The position numbers were made by a program, and so were the translations under genes. From positions 1 through 64,000 of the forward strand of contig CAKZPN010000042.1 in assembly GCA_937139335.1 (NCBI GenBank): a stretch of 64,000 nucleotides of DNA. Reading direction: 5' to 3'. Shown piece by piece: positions 4,667 through 10,883 of the stretch. The notes under the pieces are model-generated. The model was not told where the DNA came from, searched no databases, and worked only from the letters and a program-made list of their open reading frames with translations. This stretch comes from an uncultured Roseicyclus sp. (lineage in GTDB: Bacteria > Pseudomonadota > Alphaproteobacteria > Rhodobacterales > Rhodobacteraceae). Numbering within the stretch: position 1 is the first letter of the stretch; every line of letters begins with the position of its first letter.

Positions 4667-6226
4667 TCAGCGGAACCAGAAATCCCAGCCGCGCTGGTAT
4701 TCCGCGACCAGCGGATGGCCTTGGATCGAGTTCACCTCGACCTCGCGCGGACCCTGGTCCGGACCGAAGGCCTGCGACGCGCGCCAGACCTCGGGTGTCA
4801 GATGGCGCAGGCCGTCCGGCAGGAACGGGTCGCGGTCGGCGGCAGGCAACAGGGGCGCGGCCATCACGAAACCCCAGTCGCCGAAGCTGGGCACGTAGAC
4901 GTGGTAGGGCAGCGTGTCGAGCGTGCCTCCGGGATCAAGCGGGTTGCGGGTGTCAGCGAGCGTCGCCTCGACCGTCCAGAACGCGCCGGGCGAGAAGGTG
5001 GGGGAGCCCGCCTGCGTGACGAAGATCCCCTGCCCGCTCAGCCGCTCGGCCATCATGGCGTAGAATTCGACCGAGTAGAGCTTTGACAAGGCGGGGGACT
5101 TCGGGTCGGGCAGGTCGCCGATGATGACGTCGTAGATGTCCTGATCTTCGGCCAGGAAGGCCCAGGCGTCGGCGTTCACGATCTCCACCCTCGGGTCGTT
5201 CAGCGAACTCGCATTGAGCGCCGTCAGGTCAGGGTTCTCGGAAAACAGCTCGGTCACGCGCGGGTCGAGGTCGACCAGCCGCACCCGCTCCACGCCGTCG
5301 TGGCGCAGCACCTCGCGCACCGCCATGCCGTCGCCACCGCCCAGCACCAGCACCGAGGCGCGGCGCGGCGCGAGACCCATCGCGGGGTGCACCAGCGCCT
5401 CGTGGTAGCGGTGCTCGTCCAGGCTGTCGAACTGGATCGAATGGTCGAGGAACAGGCGGTAGCGTTCGTCGAAGCGGGTCAGGATGATCGACTGGTAGGG
5501 AGTCGTTTCGGACAGGATCACCTGGTCCTCGAAAAGCCGGGCGTCGACAATGGAAACCAGCCGTTCGGACCCGAAGAGGCCCAGCAGTGCCGCCAGCATG
5601 AAGCCGCCCCAAGGCACCCAGTAGACCGGCGAGAGACGGTCGCGGAACAGCCAGATCGAAAACCCCGCCACCATCAGATTCAGAGCGCCGAAGGCCAGCG
5701 AGGCGGCCATCAGCGACAGGTTGGGGATGATGAGCAGCGGAAAGGCCAGCGAGGCGGCCAGCGCGCCGATGTAGTCGGCTGTCAGCACGTTCTCGAACCG
5801 GAATTCGGCCGCCCCGATCCCCTTCATCACGCGAGAGATGAGCGGGATCTCCATCCCCGACAACACGCCGATGGCGATCAGCCCGCCGTAGAGCGGCAGG
5901 CCCACAGTGCCGTACCACGCGTAGGAAAAGAACAGGAGCGGCCCGAGCGCACCGCCGATCACGCCGAGCGCCAGCTGCGCGCGCACGAAGCCCGACAGCG
6001 CGTCGCCGACGTAGCGCGAGACATAGGCGCCGACTCCCATCGCGCTCAGGAACACCCCGATGACGAAGCTGAACTGCCGGATGCTGTCGCCCAGCAGGTA
6101 GCTGGCGATGGTCGCCGCGATCAGCTCGTAGATCAGGCCCGCGACGGCGACGACGAAGGTCGCCGCCAGAAGCCAGGCGACCTTGGGCGTAACCTCGGCG
6201 CGGTCCGGGGAGGGGGCCGCGGTCAC
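4667..6226 (-). CDS. Membrane-anchored spermidine/spermine synthase-like aminopropyltransferase
   Basis: The protein has 519 residues. About 200 N-terminal residues form seven hydrophobic segments. The C-terminal half is a SpeE-type Rossmann domain: ETTPYQSIILT, FLDHSIQFDSLDEHRYHEALVHPAM, the nucleotide-binding loop VLVLGGGDGMAVREVLRH, VDLDP, and the catalytic region VIIGDLPDPKSPALSKLYSVEFY with the expected Asp. SpeE proteins move an aminopropyl group from decarboxylated SAM to a polyamine. This fused form is a separate branch whose substrate is not established. It is the last gene of a five-gene operon (DUF4178, DUF4178, small membrane protein, DUF350, this gene), 7 bases after the DUF350 stop. 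No SpeD (SAM decarboxylase) gene lies in the window, so its aminopropyl donor must come from elsewhere or it uses another chemistry. Confidence 0.88.
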   Translation of the reverse strand: MTAAPSPDRAEVTPKVAWLLAATFVVAVAGLIYELIAATIASYLLGDSIRQFSFVIGVFLSAMGVGAYVSRYVGDALSGFVRAQLALGVIGGALGPLLFFSYAWYGTVGLPLYGGLIAIGVLSGMEIPLISRVMKGIGAAEFRFENVLTADYIGALAASLAFPLLIIPNLSLMAASLAFGALNLMVAGFSIWLFRDRLSPVYWVPWGGFMLAALLGLFGSERLVSIVDARLFEDQVILSETTPYQSIILTRFDERYRLFLDHSIQFDSLDEHRYHEALVHPAMGLAPRRASVLVLGGGDGMAVREVLRHDGVERVRLVDLDPRVTELFSENPDLTALNASSLNDPRVEIVNADAWAFLAEDQDIYDVIIGDLPDPKSPALSKLYSVEFYAMMAERLSGQGIFVTQAGSPTFSPGAFWTVEATLADTRNPLDPGGTLDTLPYHVYVPSFGDWGFVMAAPLLPAADRDPFLPDGLRHLTPEVWRASQAFGPDQGPREVEVNSIQGHPLVAEYQRGWDFWFR

Positions 6227-6233
6227 GGGCGGA

Positions 6234-6455
6234 TCAGTCCGACAACACCACGGCCGCGATGATGATCGCCATCGCGATGAAGATCGACGCGATCAGGATC
6301 GCCAGAGCGACGTTCTGATCTTCCTCGATCTCCTTGATGATCGGGAAGGGGGTCACGATGTCGACCACCTTCCAGCAGATATACATGAGGCCCATGCCGA
6401 TGCCCGTGTAGAACAGCATCGAGACGACCTCGGAGAGTATGATCCCGTCCAGCAT
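6234..6455 (-). CDS. DUF350 family small membrane protein
   Basis: The protein has 73 residues with two hydrophobic helices (about 9-30 and 47-72) joined by an acidic loop (PFPIIKEIEEDQN). Size and pattern fit a single DUF350 repeat; YjfL of E. coli is a multi-repeat relative. DUF350 genes are often found with DUF4178 proteins, polyamine-type enzymes and PspA-like proteins in membrane-stress clusters, which is the arrangement here without PspA. It lies 7 bases before the synthase and 16 bases after the preceding small gene, so it is co-transcribed. The biochemical role is unknown. Confidence 0.8.
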   Translation of the reverse strand: MLDGIILSEVVSMLFYTGIGMGLMYICWKVVDIVTPFPIIKEIEEDQNVALAILIASIFIAMAIIIAAVVLSD

Positions 6456-6471
6456 CAGGTTTCCTTTCTGA

Positions 6472-6657
6472 TCATTTGACGCGCCCGAAAAATCCGTAGC
6501 CGCCTGTGGTTCCCGTTCCCGTCGATCCGGTGCGCACCGACGGCGCGGTGGCGGACAGGTCGCTGCTTGCGCGCCCGATCCCGTACCAGGACATGTAGCC
6601 GGCCCCCAACAGGAGGGTCACGCAGCCGGCGATGATGACAAGGCGAAAGGGGTTCAT
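6472..6657 (-). CDS. Small single-span membrane protein in the DUF4178/DUF350 operon
   Basis: The protein has 61 residues: a short basic start (MNPFR), one hydrophobic helix (LVIIAGCVTLLLGAGYMSWYGI), then a flexible Ser/Thr/Gly-rich tail ending GYGFFGRVK. The start at 6657 lies 4 bases after the DUF4178 stop; a farther upstream ATG would overlap the previous gene by 29 bases. No family recognised. Its tight position between the membrane DUF4178 gene and DUF350 suggests it belongs to the same complex. Confidence 0.65.
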   Translation of the reverse strand: MNPFRLVIIAGCVTLLLGAGYMSWYGIGRASSDLSATAPSVRTGSTGTGTTGGYGFFGRVK

Positions 6658-6661
6658 CGCG

Positions 6662-7933
6662 TCAATCCTCGCTCCAGTCGCTGCCGGCAAAGCGCCGCTT
6701 CCAGTGGATGGCCCGTCGCGCCTTGAGGAAGATCCATGCCGCGACGAACAAGCCGCCGATGACGATCAACCAGAAATACGTCACCTTGCCCTCGTCGATC
6801 TGCACGCTCAGGCTGTTGCCGTTGCCGCCCTCGGCAAGCGCGAGGGTGATCTGGTGGGGCCCCGCGACCTCGGGCCGGAAGCGGAGCGTCGCGCTGCGGT
6901 AGCCCTCGATCCAGGTGCCCTCGGCATCGCGGCCGGTGTAATATTCGACCAGCCGCTCGCCCTCGACCAGCAATCCGCCATCCGGGCCGGTGATCCGCGT
7001 GCCGATCACCAGCCAGTTGTTCGTGACATCAGTGCCGAGACGCAGCCGCGCGATCTGGGAGGCGTTGGTGATCTCGAAGGGAAAGCTGACCGGCGTGGTG
7101 CTGAGCGCCACATCCTGCACATCCAGCACGCGCGGCCCCGAGATGGCGGCAAAGAGCAGCGCCAGCACGAAGGCCACCAGCGCGGACCAGCCCAGCACGC
7201 GGGCGGCAAACCCTTCTTCCGGCAGCGGCGTGTAGGGCGACAGCGGATGGCGCGGCTCTGGCCCGGCGGGCAGGTCGGCGCCCATCTCCCGCGCCACGGC
7301 CTCGCGCGGCAAGAGGGTGGTCAGTTCGACCTCTTTCTCGGTCTTGCCGTCCACGAGGCTCAGCATGGCGGAATGGCCCAGCAGCGTCACCGCCGTCGTG
7401 GTCTCGCCGATTGCGGGGATCCAGTTGAACTCCCCCTCGAGGAAATCGATCTCGGAGATGGAAGTCTCGTAGTACTTGTAATTCTCGCCCCGGTAGACGC
7501 GCCAGGGCGGGGTTTCGGCGGCCTCCACCTGCGCGGGGGTGATCCACCAGCGCCCGACGTCGAAATCGCGCACCTTGCGCGAAAAGGTGAAATGCTGGTC
7601 TTCCCACGTCAGCCAGGCGTAGCCGTGGGTGGGCGAAAAGACCTGGTGTTCGACCCAGCGCGCGACGCCGCCCGACCAGCGTTCGACCTTGCCGATGGTG
7701 CCGATGACGGTGAAGATCACGCCCTCGACCGTCAGTTCCATGCCGATCCTGACCGGGCTGGACGGATGGTCGCGTTTGCCGATCGAGGTCAGGATCTTGT
7801 AGTTGTCCTGGCTGTCCAGCATCGCGCCGCAATAGCCGCAAACCTGCGTCAGCACGCGACCGCCGCCCAGCACCGACAAGCCGGCGCCGCATTGCGTGCA
7901 GTTGATCGAACCGAGGCCCGGCGCGCGCGTCAT
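6662..7933 (-). CDS. DUF4178 protein with zinc ribbon and two membrane helices
   Basis: The protein has 423 residues. It opens with a zinc ribbon (CTQCG ... CGYCG, about 12-36), then a DUF4178 domain (about 45-200: IGMELTVEGVIFTVIGTI, VFSPTHGYAWLTWEDQHFTF, PPWRVYRGENYKYYE), a linker, a hydrophobic helix near 255-275, a predicted beta-rich extracytoplasmic domain, and a second helix (TYFWLIVIGGLFVAAWIFL) near the C-terminus. The start at 7933 overlaps the previous stop codon (ATGA), so translation is coupled to the first DUF4178 gene. The layout, a cytoplasmic zinc-ribbon sensor-like domain with a periplasmic domain between two helices, suggests signalling or scaffold work at the membrane; that is inference. 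Confidence 0.82.
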   Translation of the reverse strand: MTRAPGLGSINCTQCGAGLSVLGGGRVLTQVCGYCGAMLDSQDNYKILTSIGKRDHPSSPVRIGMELTVEGVIFTVIGTIGKVERWSGGVARWVEHQVFSPTHGYAWLTWEDQHFTFSRKVRDFDVGRWWITPAQVEAAETPPWRVYRGENYKYYETSISEIDFLEGEFNWIPAIGETTTAVTLLGHSAMLSLVDGKTEKEVELTTLLPREAVAREMGADLPAGPEPRHPLSPYTPLPEEGFAARVLGWSALVAFVLALLFAAISGPRVLDVQDVALSTTPVSFPFEITNASQIARLRLGTDVTNNWLVIGTRITGPDGGLLVEGERLVEYYTGRDAEGTWIEGYRSATLRFRPEVAGPHQITLALAEGGNGNSLSVQIDEGKVTYFWLIVIGGLFVAAWIFLKARRAIHWKRRFAGSDWSED

Positions 7934-8556
7934 CCGATCTGCCTTTCGACGTTCAGATCGAACGGGTCGAGCCACGAGCCGAGGAACCAGCTTTCGCCGC
8001 CGTCCCAGACCTCGCCCGACAGGAGCGCGCCGGCAGCGCCGCTCGCGTTGACGAAACGGTGGGTGTCGCCCAGCTCGATCCGCTCGGGCAATTCGCCGCG
8101 GAAGGCCACGGCCGTTGCCGCGTCCATCTCGGTGACGGTGTAGATCCGGTTCTCGACCCGGACCTGCGCGCCGAGCCTCAATTCGCCCATCAGACCGGCG
8201 CGAACGGCCTCGTCAGGCAGGGCACGCTGGATCACCACGTCGCCCTCGTCAATGGAAATCCACGCGCCGTAGCCCTGCGGATCCTCGGCCCACATCTCGT
8301 CCCAGAAGCCGCGGCCATAGTCGTAGCGGACGTGGCCCAGCACGCTGTAGGCGCGTTCCTCGGCATGGACGGTATCGCCGATGCCAAAGAGCATCGGGGT
8401 GTCGTGCATCTCGCCGTGGTTGCCGAGGGGAGCCAGCGCGTCGCCCTCGCGAAACAGCGTGGTGCCGCACGAGGGGCAATCGAACATCCGGGTCGACCGC
8501 CGCAATGCGTCGAAACCGTAGCCGCAATTGGGACAGGACACCGGGGCAGACGCCAT
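7930..8556 (-). CDS. DUF4178 protein with N-terminal zinc ribbon (soluble)
   Basis: The protein has 208 residues and is the first gene of the five-gene operon. It begins with a zinc ribbon (CPNCGYGF ... CPSCGTTLF), followed by one DUF4178 domain (IGDTVHAEERAYSVLGHVRYDYGRGFWDEMWAEDP ... GYGAWISIDEGD) and a second half (LGAQVRVENRIYTVTEMDAATAVAFRGELP) that looks like another small barrel. No membrane helix. The ATG at 8556 is chosen because the zinc ribbon starts right after it; a GTG at 8598 is possible but would sit on a candidate -10 sequence. Its own promoter should lie between the terminator at 8624-8657 and 8560; TTTACG, 18 bases, TAGGGT is a weak candidate. Function unknown. Confidence 0.8.
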   Translation of the reverse strand: MASAPVSCPNCGYGFDALRRSTRMFDCPSCGTTLFREGDALAPLGNHGEMHDTPMLFGIGDTVHAEERAYSVLGHVRYDYGRGFWDEMWAEDPQGYGAWISIDEGDVVIQRALPDEAVRAGLMGELRLGAQVRVENRIYTVTEMDAATAVAFRGELPERIELGDTHRFVNASGAAGALLSGEVWDGGESWFLGSWLDPFDLNVERQIG

Positions 8557-8664: not shown

Positions 8665-10035
8665 TCAGCCGAGCACCTCGGCGATGCTGTCGACGGTGGC
8701 CGTGACGATCTCGTCGGCCTCCGCGCGGCTCAGGCATAGCGGAGGCGCATAGCCCAGGATGTCGCCCTGCGGCATCGCCCGCGCGATCACGCCACGCCGC
8801 GACATGGCGCCCACGATCTTCGGCACGATCTTGTCGGCGGCATCGAAGCCTTCGCGGGTATCGCGGTTCTTGACCAGTTCGACCGCTGCCAGCATCCCCG
8901 CGCCGCGCACCTCGCCGATATGCGCGTGCTCGGCCAGCGCCTCGGTCATGGTGCGGGTCAGGTAGGGACCGACCTCGCCCGCGTTCTCGACCAGGTTCAG
9001 GCTGTCCACGAGCTTGAGGTTCGCGACCCCAGCCGCCGCGCCGATGGGATGCGCCGAATAGGTCCAGCCATGGCCGAAGGGGCCGAATTCGTCGGTGCCC
9101 TGCTCCAGCACCTTCCAGACCTTGTCCGACACGATGGAGCCGGACATCGGCGCATAGGCCGAGGTCAGGCCCTTGGCGATGGTCATGATGTCGGGCTTGA
9201 TCCCGTAATGCGGCGAGCCGAACATGGAGCCGAGGCGGCCGAAGCCGGTCACGACCTCGTCGGCGATCAGCAGGATGTCGTGCTTTTCCAGCACCGGCGT
9301 GATCGCCTCCCAGTAGCCCTTGGGCGGGGGCACGATGCCGCCGGTGCCGAGCATCGGCTCGCCGATGAAGGCGGCGATGGTGTCCGCGCCCTCGGCCGCG
9401 ATCAGCTCTTCGAGGTCGGCGGCGCATTGCGCGCTGAACTGCTCCTCGGTCTGCGACACGTCCGCCCGCCGGTAGTAGTAGGGCGAGGTGGTGTGGCGCA
9501 CCGTGTCGAGCGGCAGGTCGAATTTCTGGTGGAACAGCGTGAGCCCGGTCAGCGACCCCGACATCAGGCCCGAACCGTGGTAGCCGCGCCAGCGCGAAAT
9601 GATCTTCTTCTTCCGCGGCAGTCCGCGGATGTTGTTGTAGTACCAGACCAGCTTGATGTTGGTCTCGTTCGCGTCAGACCCGCCAAGGCCGAAATAGACC
9701 TTCGACATGTGGTCGGGCGCGCGCTCCATGACCATGCGCGACAGCGTGATTGACGCCTCTGTGCCGTGGCCGACATAGGCGTGGTAATAGGCCAGCTCGC
9801 GCGCCTGCTCGGCGATGGCCTCGGCCACCTCCTGCCGTCCGTAGCCGATGTTCACGCAATAGAGCCCGGCGAAGGCGTCGAGCAGGCGGTTGCCGTCGCG
9901 GTCGGTGATGTAGCAGCCCTCACCGGTCTGGATCACGCGGCCCGGCGCCTCGCCACGGGCGTGCTGGGCGAAGTGGGTCGACGGATGCAAGAAGTGATCG
10001 CGGTCCCATTTCGCGAGCTGGTCGTTGGTGAGCAT
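8665..10035 (-). CDS. Class III PLP-dependent aminotransferase (omega-amino acid/polyamine:pyruvate type)
   Basis: The protein has 456 residues, the full length for the family. Landmarks in order: WDRDHFLHPST, LLDAFAGLYCVNIGYGR (53-66), YFGLGGSDANETNIKL (PLP phosphate loop, about 114-129), ISRWRGYHGSGLMSGSLTG, AAFIGEPMLGTGGIVPPPKGYW, D259 in IADEVVTGFGR and K288 in MTIAKGLTSAY as the likely Schiff-base Lys. The start at 10035 has an AGGAGAG ribosome site. The sequence looks like the SpuC / beta-alanine:pyruvate / taurine:pyruvate branch. The exact amine donor cannot be fixed by eye. Its place directly upstream of an operon ending in a spermidine-synthase-like gene makes a polyamine substrate worth considering, but a terminator lies between. 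Confidence 0.88.
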   Translation of the reverse strand: MLTNDQLAKWDRDHFLHPSTHFAQHARGEAPGRVIQTGEGCYITDRDGNRLLDAFAGLYCVNIGYGRQEVAEAIAEQARELAYYHAYVGHGTEASITLSRMVMERAPDHMSKVYFGLGGSDANETNIKLVWYYNNIRGLPRKKKIISRWRGYHGSGLMSGSLTGLTLFHQKFDLPLDTVRHTTSPYYYRRADVSQTEEQFSAQCAADLEELIAAEGADTIAAFIGEPMLGTGGIVPPPKGYWEAITPVLEKHDILLIADEVVTGFGRLGSMFGSPHYGIKPDIMTIAKGLTSAYAPMSGSIVSDKVWKVLEQGTDEFGPFGHGWTYSAHPIGAAAGVANLKLVDSLNLVENAGEVGPYLTRTMTEALAEHAHIGEVRGAGMLAAVELVKNRDTREGFDAADKIVPKIVGAMSRRGVIARAMPQGDILGYAPPLCLSRAEADEIVTATVDSIAEVLG

Positions 10036-10172
10036 GGCTCTCTCTCCTGTCTGAAGGGCTTGCCCGCAGGTAACGGGGCGGACGGGCAGGATGCAACCCA
10101 CGGCCGGCGAAGCGCCGGTCTGGCCGGGCGAATCGCCGGGGGCGAGCGCCCGGCCTGGCGCATTGCTCGCGC

Positions 10173-10883
10173 CTAGCCGTGGCGGCGAAACGTCAGGTAG
10201 TGCGGCACCCGCCCTTCGCGCAGGGCCTTCACCTCGTAGCGCGTGGAGATCCAGTCGCCCCACGGCCTGCGCCAATCCTCCGGCCCCTCGGCCAGCCAGT
10301 CGAAGCCCGCGCGCGGCACCTCCTCGAGCGTCTGGCGGACGTAGTCGGGGATGTCGGTCGCCACGCGGAACTCGGCACCCGGTTTCAGGACACGGGCCAA
10401 AGGCTCCAGATGCTCGGGCGTGACGAAGCGGCGGCGGTGGTGGCGCACCTTGGGCCAGGGGTCGGGGTAGAGCAGGAAGGCCTTCGCGATCGAGGCGTCG
10501 GGCAGCACGTCGAACATGTCGCGCACGTCGCCGGGGAAGACGCGGAGGTTGTCCACGCCCGCGCGCCGGATCTTGCCCAGCAGCATCGCCACCCCGTTGA
10601 TGTAGGGCTCGCAGCCGATGATGCCGACGTCGGGGTTCTGCGCGGCCTGGTGCACCATGTGCTCGCCGCCGCCGAACCCGACCTCGAGCCAGGTATCGCG
10701 ACCGCCGAAGAGCGCGCCGAGATCCAGCGGCACCCGCTCCGGGTTCACCTCCCAGTCGACAGCGCCCGGGCTGAGCGCGTCGAGGTCTTCTTGCAGATAG
10801 ACCTCCTGGCTGTCGCGCAGGTGCTTGCCACGGCGGCGGCCGTAGAAATTGCGGTGCGGGCGCGCAGGGCTGTCAGGCGTCAT
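10173..10883 (-). CDS. trmB: tRNA (guanine-N7-)-methyltransferase TrmB
   Basis: The protein has 236 residues, normal for TrmB, which makes m7G46 in tRNA from SAM. The N-terminus has the familiar FYGRRRGKHLR. SAM binding: LEVGFGGGEHMVHQAAQNPD; IGCEPYINGVAMLL; FLLYPDPWPKVRHHRRRFV is the diagnostic catalytic/tRNA-binding motif; ATDIPDYVRQTLE near the end. It is a single gene with a 137-base gap to the aminotransferase. In many relatives trmB sits directly by metK; here four genes separate the two. Confidence 0.96.
   Translation of the reverse strand: MTPDSPARPHRNFYGRRRGKHLRDSQEVYLQEDLDALSPGAVDWEVNPERVPLDLGALFGGRDTWLEVGFGGGEHMVHQAAQNPDVGIIGCEPYINGVAMLLGKIRRAGVDNLRVFPGDVRDMFDVLPDASIAKAFLLYPDPWPKVRHHRRRFVTPEHLEPLARVLKPGAEFRVATDIPDYVRQTLEEVPRAGFDWLAEGPEDWRRPWGDWISTRYEVKALREGRVPHYLTFRRHG

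Follow-up and report, generated by a model that had tools for sequence, protein, structure and literature searches.

In a stretch of 64,000 nucleotides from an uncultured Roseicyclus sp. (Rhodobacteraceae; contig CAKZPN010000042.1), here called the window, five genes lie together on the minus strand and encode, in the order in which they are transcribed, a DUF4178 protein (A), a DUF4178-type protein (B), a protein of 61 amino acids (aa) with one membrane helix, a DUF350 protein and a fusion of a seven-helix membrane domain with a spermidine-synthase-like domain (SpeE-7TM). The five genes form a conserved block in Rhodobacteraceae, and its most informative feature, which a preliminary description of the operon had missed, is the lysine in which the small membrane protein ends. 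It is proposed here, with a probability of about 0.5, that SpeE-7TM aminopropylates this C-terminal lysine, using decarboxylated S-adenosylmethionine (dcSAM) as the donor and giving a spermidine-like end.

Conservation of the block and of the lysine tail

Two samples of genomes were surveyed, 249 from Pseudomonadota (the phylum sample) and 199 from the window's family, and 125 neighbourhoods were assembled from 26 phylum matches (the window's genome being excluded), 19 matches in 18 other family genomes and 80 titled records, i.e. the best 80 of 580 confirmed; counts of loci and genomes, and the p-values given with them, take no account of kinship among loci. SpeE-7TM exceeds its curated cut-off in 27 of the 249 Pseudomonadota genomes, so that membrane-fused aminopropyltransferases are not rare, and DUF350 is found in all 27. 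DUF4178 is present in 19 of the 249 (18 above the curated cut-off and one, G007, slightly under it), all of which fall within the 27 genomes with SpeE-7TM (hypergeometric p = 1.6e-22) and have DUF4178 and SpeE-7TM together on one contig. The preliminary description had called for a search for the five-gene order across genomes, and the order does recur: DUF4178 (as two genes or frames), DUF350 and SpeE-7TM follow one another as in the window in 15 of the 19 family loci, and in each of these 15 the gap holds a small, lysine-ending open reading frame (ORF).

Only eight proteins, the window's own among them, were found by homology to the 61-aa protein, and further relatives were therefore sought by position. 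Among the sequence relatives the C-terminal lysine is present without exception (17 of 17 loci; eight of eight proteins, including the window's own). In the positional test, the ORFs collected were those of 40-160 aa, containing a hydrophobic segment, that lie between DUF4178 and DUF350 genes running in the same direction; the last residue was ignored, and the most hydrophobic ORF was scored at each locus. The test was applicable to 82 of the 125 loci and gave a qualifying ORF in 58, of which 55 end in lysine, against a background of 63 in the 1004 genes of 150 aa or more that the fetched loci contain. Of the three loci scored otherwise, L165 and L183 each hold another gap ORF, with lysine as its last residue, and at L066 it is the DUF4178 protein that has the terminal lysine. 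The 24 loci with no qualifying ORF comprise 13 whose DUF4178 protein carries at its own C-terminus a membrane helix followed by a tail of the type ...HK, seven with a lysine-ending ORF in the gap that the filter missed and four with a lysine-ending ORF beside SpeE-7TM instead. The DUF4178 proteins with such a C-terminal extension, whose Gly/Ser tail ends in ...(G/S)HK (L182, L189, L191, L193, L198, L200, L203, L208, L227, L066, L068-L070 and L072), are apparent natural fusions of the tail with its partner. The remaining 24 loci with DUF350 also have a lysine-ending membrane tail, which brings the count to 106 of 106 loci with both SpeE-7TM and DUF350, a figure that includes fused and displaced versions and was completed by eye.

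A filter for Gly/Ser-rich tails, which left out six of the 125 loci for want of an anchor, points in the same direction, in that lysine is the last residue of 40 of the 42 candidates near SpeE-7TM vs one of 24 farther away; of the 40, that at L150 resembles an ORF arising by chance, and the sole distant match (L167) is preceded by its cluster's DUF4178 genes. Furthermore, the tails are of several mutually unalike kinds (...GRVK, ...FGK, ...LRGGK, ...FYHK and ...SGGGHK), so that simple inheritance of one sequence is a poor explanation of the shared last residue. No report of the lysine tail was found in a literature search that had supplements and most subscription papers outside its reach and, as far as such searches go, the tail appears new.

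Other neighbours vary among lineages. With profiles grown from single seeds and a range of 9 kb around SpeE-7TM, S-adenosylmethionine (SAM) decarboxylase (SpeD) was found at 61 of the 125 loci, a flavin amine oxidase (e.g. L074:7439-9070) at 54 and an SPFH protein at 36. The oxidase occurs at none of the 19 family loci (L129-L147), and the window's genome gave no match to it, an empty result that alone shows little.

The enzyme, its donor and its side of the membrane

SpeE-7TM matches the polyamine aminopropyltransferase family NF002956, a name implying action on a free polyamine, over residues 7-516 with 621.9 bits (curated cut-off 472) and PF01564 with 120 bits. In its AlphaFold2 model (mean predicted local distance difference test score, pLDDT, 93.6) seven membrane-length helices precede a SpeE fold, which in Foldseek matches solved aminopropyltransferases; together with NF002956, the model bears out the earlier assignment of a SpeE-like enzyme fused to a seven-helix domain. 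Across 121 SpeE-7TM proteins, Q265, D321, D353, D371 and D374 are invariant, the GGG(D/E)G acid at 299 is always acidic (D in 120, E in one), and E126, D151, Y152 and N183 of the membrane domain are likewise invariant. The acids of the DxxDP motif are catalytic in the aminopropyltransferase family, and a dead SpeE domain was rejected, the catalytic acids being retained in 121 of 121 proteins. Bacterial membrane-aminopropyltransferase fusions are reported, in one sentence that cites Li et al. 2019, to be uninvolved in the synthesis of spermidine or spermine (PMC12803844) and, therefore, another acceptor is needed. No paper naming the acceptor of the membrane-fused aminopropyltransferases was found in the literature search. 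The window's genome also encodes a 502-aa frame (L003; G000:C46:107991-109304) that weakly matches NF002956 in both its membrane and its SpeE part, and weak matches of this type are present in many family genomes.

SpeE-7TM goes with a maker of dcSAM, as expected of an aminopropyltransferase. SpeD is present in 50 of the 199 family genomes, namely in all 19 with SpeE-7TM vs 31 of the 180 without it (p = 2e-13), and in 22 of the 27 phylum genomes with SpeE-7TM vs 47 of the 222 others (p = 9e-10). Of the five phylum genomes that have SpeE-7TM and no PF02675 match, three encode a decarboxylase of family PF01536, the search for which covered nine genomes. In the family sample, a soluble-type SpeE scores above 100 bits in four of the 19 SpeE-7TM genomes and in none of the other 15, and only three of the 50 genomes with SpeD have neither SpeE-7TM nor a soluble-type SpeE. 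The window's genome contains one SpeD (PF02675, 126 bits, C18:44023-44334), which adjoins a canonical speE on a contig other than that of the operon. Thus, the idea of an operon lacking its donor was rejected; the preliminary description was right that no SAM decarboxylase is encoded in the operon itself, but one is present elsewhere in the genome, and its picture of a self-contained complex does not hold, given this SpeD and the co-occurrence of SpeE-7TM with SpeD across genomes.

As for the side of the membrane, the mean number of Lys+Arg residues in 45 proteins is 2.1 in the N-terminus, 0.5, 2.3, 0.4, 3.0, 0.1 and 2.9 in the six successive loops, and 1.5 after helix seven, i.e. 2.1-3.0 in each segment predicted inside and 0.1-1.5 in those predicted outside. 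By the positive-inside rule, and with seven helices, the N-terminus is therefore predicted inside and the SpeE domain outside. In 17 tails picked by hand the mean net charge is +2.1 before the helix and -0.1 after it, and the tails are therefore predicted to point outward as well. The flavin amine oxidase has a twin-arginine RR motif before its flavin adenine dinucleotide (FAD) fold in 50 of 68 matches, some of which are fragments or over-long frames. The SpeE domain, the tail and the oxidase are thus all predicted, from these sequence features, to face the periplasm, and dcSAM would then have to cross the membrane. The model is weakest at this point.

The proposed reaction and its alternatives

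In the proposed reaction, the aminopropyl group of dcSAM would be moved by SpeE-7TM onto the terminal lysine of the small membrane protein, whose gene lies two genes upstream of that for the enzyme, and the lysine side chain would be extended into a spermidine unit, or cap. Putrescine is the acceptor of the ordinary SpeE, and lysine may be accepted because its side chain is an aminobutyl amine with the same reach. The reaction would take place at the outer face of the inner membrane, to which the seven-helix domain, perhaps by means of the invariant E126, D151, Y152 and N183, might pass dcSAM, and the DUF4178 and DUF350 proteins may hold the tail in position. In lineages with the flavin amine oxidase, the latter may act on the capped product. 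A broader view, held more tentatively than the identity of the acceptor, is that of a previously unrecognized system of protein modification spanning many bacterial phyla, in which an extracytoplasmic membrane aminopropyltransferase, fed with dcSAM through its seven helices, caps tail lysines, and an exported oxidase converts the cap in many lineages. The earlier suggestion that a membrane complex adds an aminopropyl-like group to a lipid, a peptide or a polyamine is in keeping with the conserved set and its aminopropyl-type enzyme, and a peptide was among the targets it named.

Several observations weigh against the lysine tail as the acceptor, or against parts of the model. Four of the 19 family loci (L136, L138, L146 and L147) encode SpeD, a rhomboid-GNAT fusion (PF01694 and PF00583 in L138), a lysine-ending protein of about 200 aa and SpeE-7TM; this variant has the enzyme and the lysine tail with no DUF4178 or DUF350 nearby, and these two would therefore be inessential to the chemistry. 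A strict automatic script finds the lysine end in just 69 of the 106 loci, although it discards every ORF that terminates within a labelled gene, and the frames given for DUF350 often start too far upstream; in the automatic count aspartate comes next (46), largely from the acidic ends of DUF4178 proteins. No tail was found in 13 of the 125 loci, ten of which have no DUF350 in the fetched stretch; in the other three (L076, L084 and L087) the genome has a tail beside DUF350 on another contig. Two genomes, G037 and G057, have SpeE-7TM and neither PF02675 nor PF01536. Moreover, dcSAM is produced in the cytosol, and the outward model could fail even if the acceptor is right, as the tail could be modified before export. 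Finally, the fixed last lysine could be a docking signal.

The last point is central to an alternative in which DUF4178 or DUF350 reads the terminal lysine as no more than a binding or sorting signal, and a membrane lipid, e.g. an aminophospholipid, accepts the aminopropyl group. The parts reside mostly at the membrane, and the PspA, SPFH and DUF350 partners of other lineages would fit work at its surface, but such an acceptor predicts neither the lysine tail nor its fusion to DUF4178, and appears quite unlikely. A free, non-standard polyamine made by SpeE-7TM at the membrane, with the tail protein, DUF4178 and DUF350 as parts of a regulator or transporter, is somewhat easier to entertain, though still unlikely: the SpeE active site is intact and the matches by sequence in the PDB are soluble polyamine synthases, including thermospermine synthase. 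On the other hand, this possibility leaves the fixed last lysine unexplained, a soluble-type SpeE exists alongside the fusion in four of the 19 family genomes, and the fusions are reported to have no role in spermidine or spermine synthesis (PMC12803844).

The seven helices and SpeE fold are also the layout of a fungal membrane enzyme that methylates the N-terminal histidine of secreted proteins (PMC10349129, consulted in part), and SpeE-7TM might by analogy be a methyltransferase or another SAM-dependent enzyme. This is the least probable of the alternatives, and indeed improbable, since none of the 121 proteins has lost the acid of the GxG(D/E)G motif, and the fusion co-occurs with SpeD, of which a SAM methyltransferase would have no need.

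If aminopropylation of the tail lysine is true, the question of what the membrane-fused SpeE relatives act on would be answered, the aminopropylation of a protein C-terminal lysine would join the list of modifications, and polyamine chemistry would be linked to the cell envelope.

Parts of the operon and relation to known systems

All five genes were verified at their places (table 1), and the spacing given in the preliminary description, i.e. one overlap of 4 bases followed by gaps of 4, 16 and 7 bases, is matched exactly by the sequence.

Table 1. Positions in the window of the five genes and of parts discussed in the text.
Feature	Position	Strand	Description
DUF4178 protein A	7930..8556	-	208 aa, soluble; zinc-ribbon-like cysteines and DUF4178; PF13785 69 bits, cut-off 25
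DUF4178-type protein B	6662..7933	-	423 aa; zinc-ribbon-like cysteines, beta-rich domain, membrane helix, beta ectodomain, membrane helix
Lysine-tail protein	6472..6657	-	61 aa; one membrane helix, Gly/Ser-rich tail ending ...GGYGFFGRVK; proposed acceptor
C-terminal lysine codon (K61)	6475..6477	-	From sequence and conservation; proposed site of aminopropylation
DUF350 short form	6234..6455	-	73 aa, membrane; PF03994 50.9 bits, cut-off 26
SpeE-7TM (seven-helix membrane domain and spermidine-synthase-like domain)	4667..6226	-	519 aa; NF002956, PF01564, AlphaFold2, Foldseek
SpeE-7TM membrane domain	5573..6187	-	Model helices 14-45, 48-72, 76-105, 109-136, 144-169, 172-193, 200-218
SpeE-fold domain of SpeE-7TM, residues 235-457	4856..5524	-	Sequence, AlphaFold2 model, Foldseek
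D371-L-P-D374-P motif of SpeE-7TM	5102..5116	-	At the place of the aminopropyltransferase catalytic DxxDP

Of the two DUF4178 zinc-ribbon proteins described earlier, A is confirmed by its PF13785 score; B does have two helices (240-263 and 387-417, flanking a beta-rich domain), but reaches the cut-off of no Pfam family, PF13785 included, its zinc ribbons being found below threshold only. Most of the homologues listed for B are labelled PF13785 in precomputed annotation, and B is at most a diverged DUF4178 member as judged from sequence; in Foldseek against the PDB, the 50 matches listed have query-normalized TM-scores of just 0.09-0.18. The 61-aa protein matches no family in Pfam and NCBIfam scans, and its IAGC at residues 9-12 is lipobox-like, but very early, with a cysteine that is not conserved (serine in P0244). 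The gene immediately upstream of the operon, also on the minus strand (window 8665-10275), encodes an aminotransferase of class III and the PRK07482 subfamily (823 bits).

The preliminary description had singled out the operon as a candidate for a not-yet-described system. An operon with SpeE-7TM, DUF350 and DUF4178 is, however, already in print, as part of a PspA-CesT/Tir operon that also encodes a novel lipoprotein (mSystems 2024, PMC11237479, consulted in part). As far as its main text goes, the two operons share these three components, each with an extra envelope protein, and the window's operon differs in having no PspA, two DUF4178 genes and a short DUF350 (PMC11237479). The extra protein named there is a lipoprotein (Ctha_1186), whose position is taken in the window's operon by the one-helix protein, and the term 'c-terminal lysine' has no occurrence in the main text, the supplements being outside the search (PMC11237479). 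As for the CesT/Tir-PspA pair, the window's operon has no PspA, and CesT/Tir and the ribbon-helix-helix (RHH) regulator were not searched for. The operon type is known but uncharacterized, and the version in the window lacks PspA and has its DUF4178 genes split.

The absence of PspA from the operon, as stated earlier, is correct, but is not distinctive and was rejected as a special trait, being common among SpeE-7TM loci: PspA lies near SpeE-7TM in only 11 of the 125, a lower bound and probably an undercount, namely in ten of the 27 phylum genomes by Pfam and at L185. Beyond the phylum sample this count relies on a single-seed profile, which at its threshold missed four of the ten Pfam loci (G006, G010, G014 and G022) and above 60 bits gave seven of the 125. 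In the window's genome there is a partial PspA match of 21.8 bits (cut-off 33.9), cut by a contig end (G000:C24:1-267; L005, L099).

Clusters of a SAM decarboxylase, a fusion of a membrane protein with a spermidine-synthase-like domain, and DUF350 were reportedly described by Li et al. in 2019 (Biochem J), with the acceptor left open. By this account, they have the same type of enzyme and supply of donor, SpeD being outside the operon in the case of the window, for which a concrete acceptor is proposed here. The fungal N-terminal histidine methyltransferase (NHMT), with its seven helices and SpeE-like fold, shares with SpeE-7TM the layout and, if the proposal is right, action on an end of exported proteins; the membrane domains are likened by layout only, and the fungal enzyme lacks the acidic dcSAM residue that SpeE-7TM keeps at 299, a loss by which it is marked (PMC10349129).

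A different parallel is offered by E. coli, where YjfC and YgiC, encoded in yjfIJKLMC and ygiBC, are annotated as peptide-spermidine ligases, and where the yjf operon also encodes DUF350, a relative of PspA and a DUF1190 protein. These ligases, of the ATP-grasp type, stand in the place of SpeE-7TM, and no such ligase was found among the five operon proteins and four neighbouring proteins scanned. Their neighbours YjfM (L232:12388-13026) and YgiB (L233:745-1416), which from gene neighbourhood may be the natural targets of YjfC and YgiC, have Ser/Gly/Arg-rich tails that end in Gly-Gly and not in lysine, and the acceptor there would be a carboxyl. Nonetheless, the E. coli systems and that of the window have in common a tail protein that is rich in Gly/Ser and bears a membrane helix or a lipobox, the handling of a polyamine and, in yjf, DUF350. 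By analogy, the carboxyl end of the E. coli proteins could be joined to spermidine and the lysine end of the window's protein could be built into it. If so, the SpeE-7TM system would be the chemical twin of the ligases that attach spermidine to peptides, and two unrelated types of enzyme may have converged on polyamine-ended envelope proteins.

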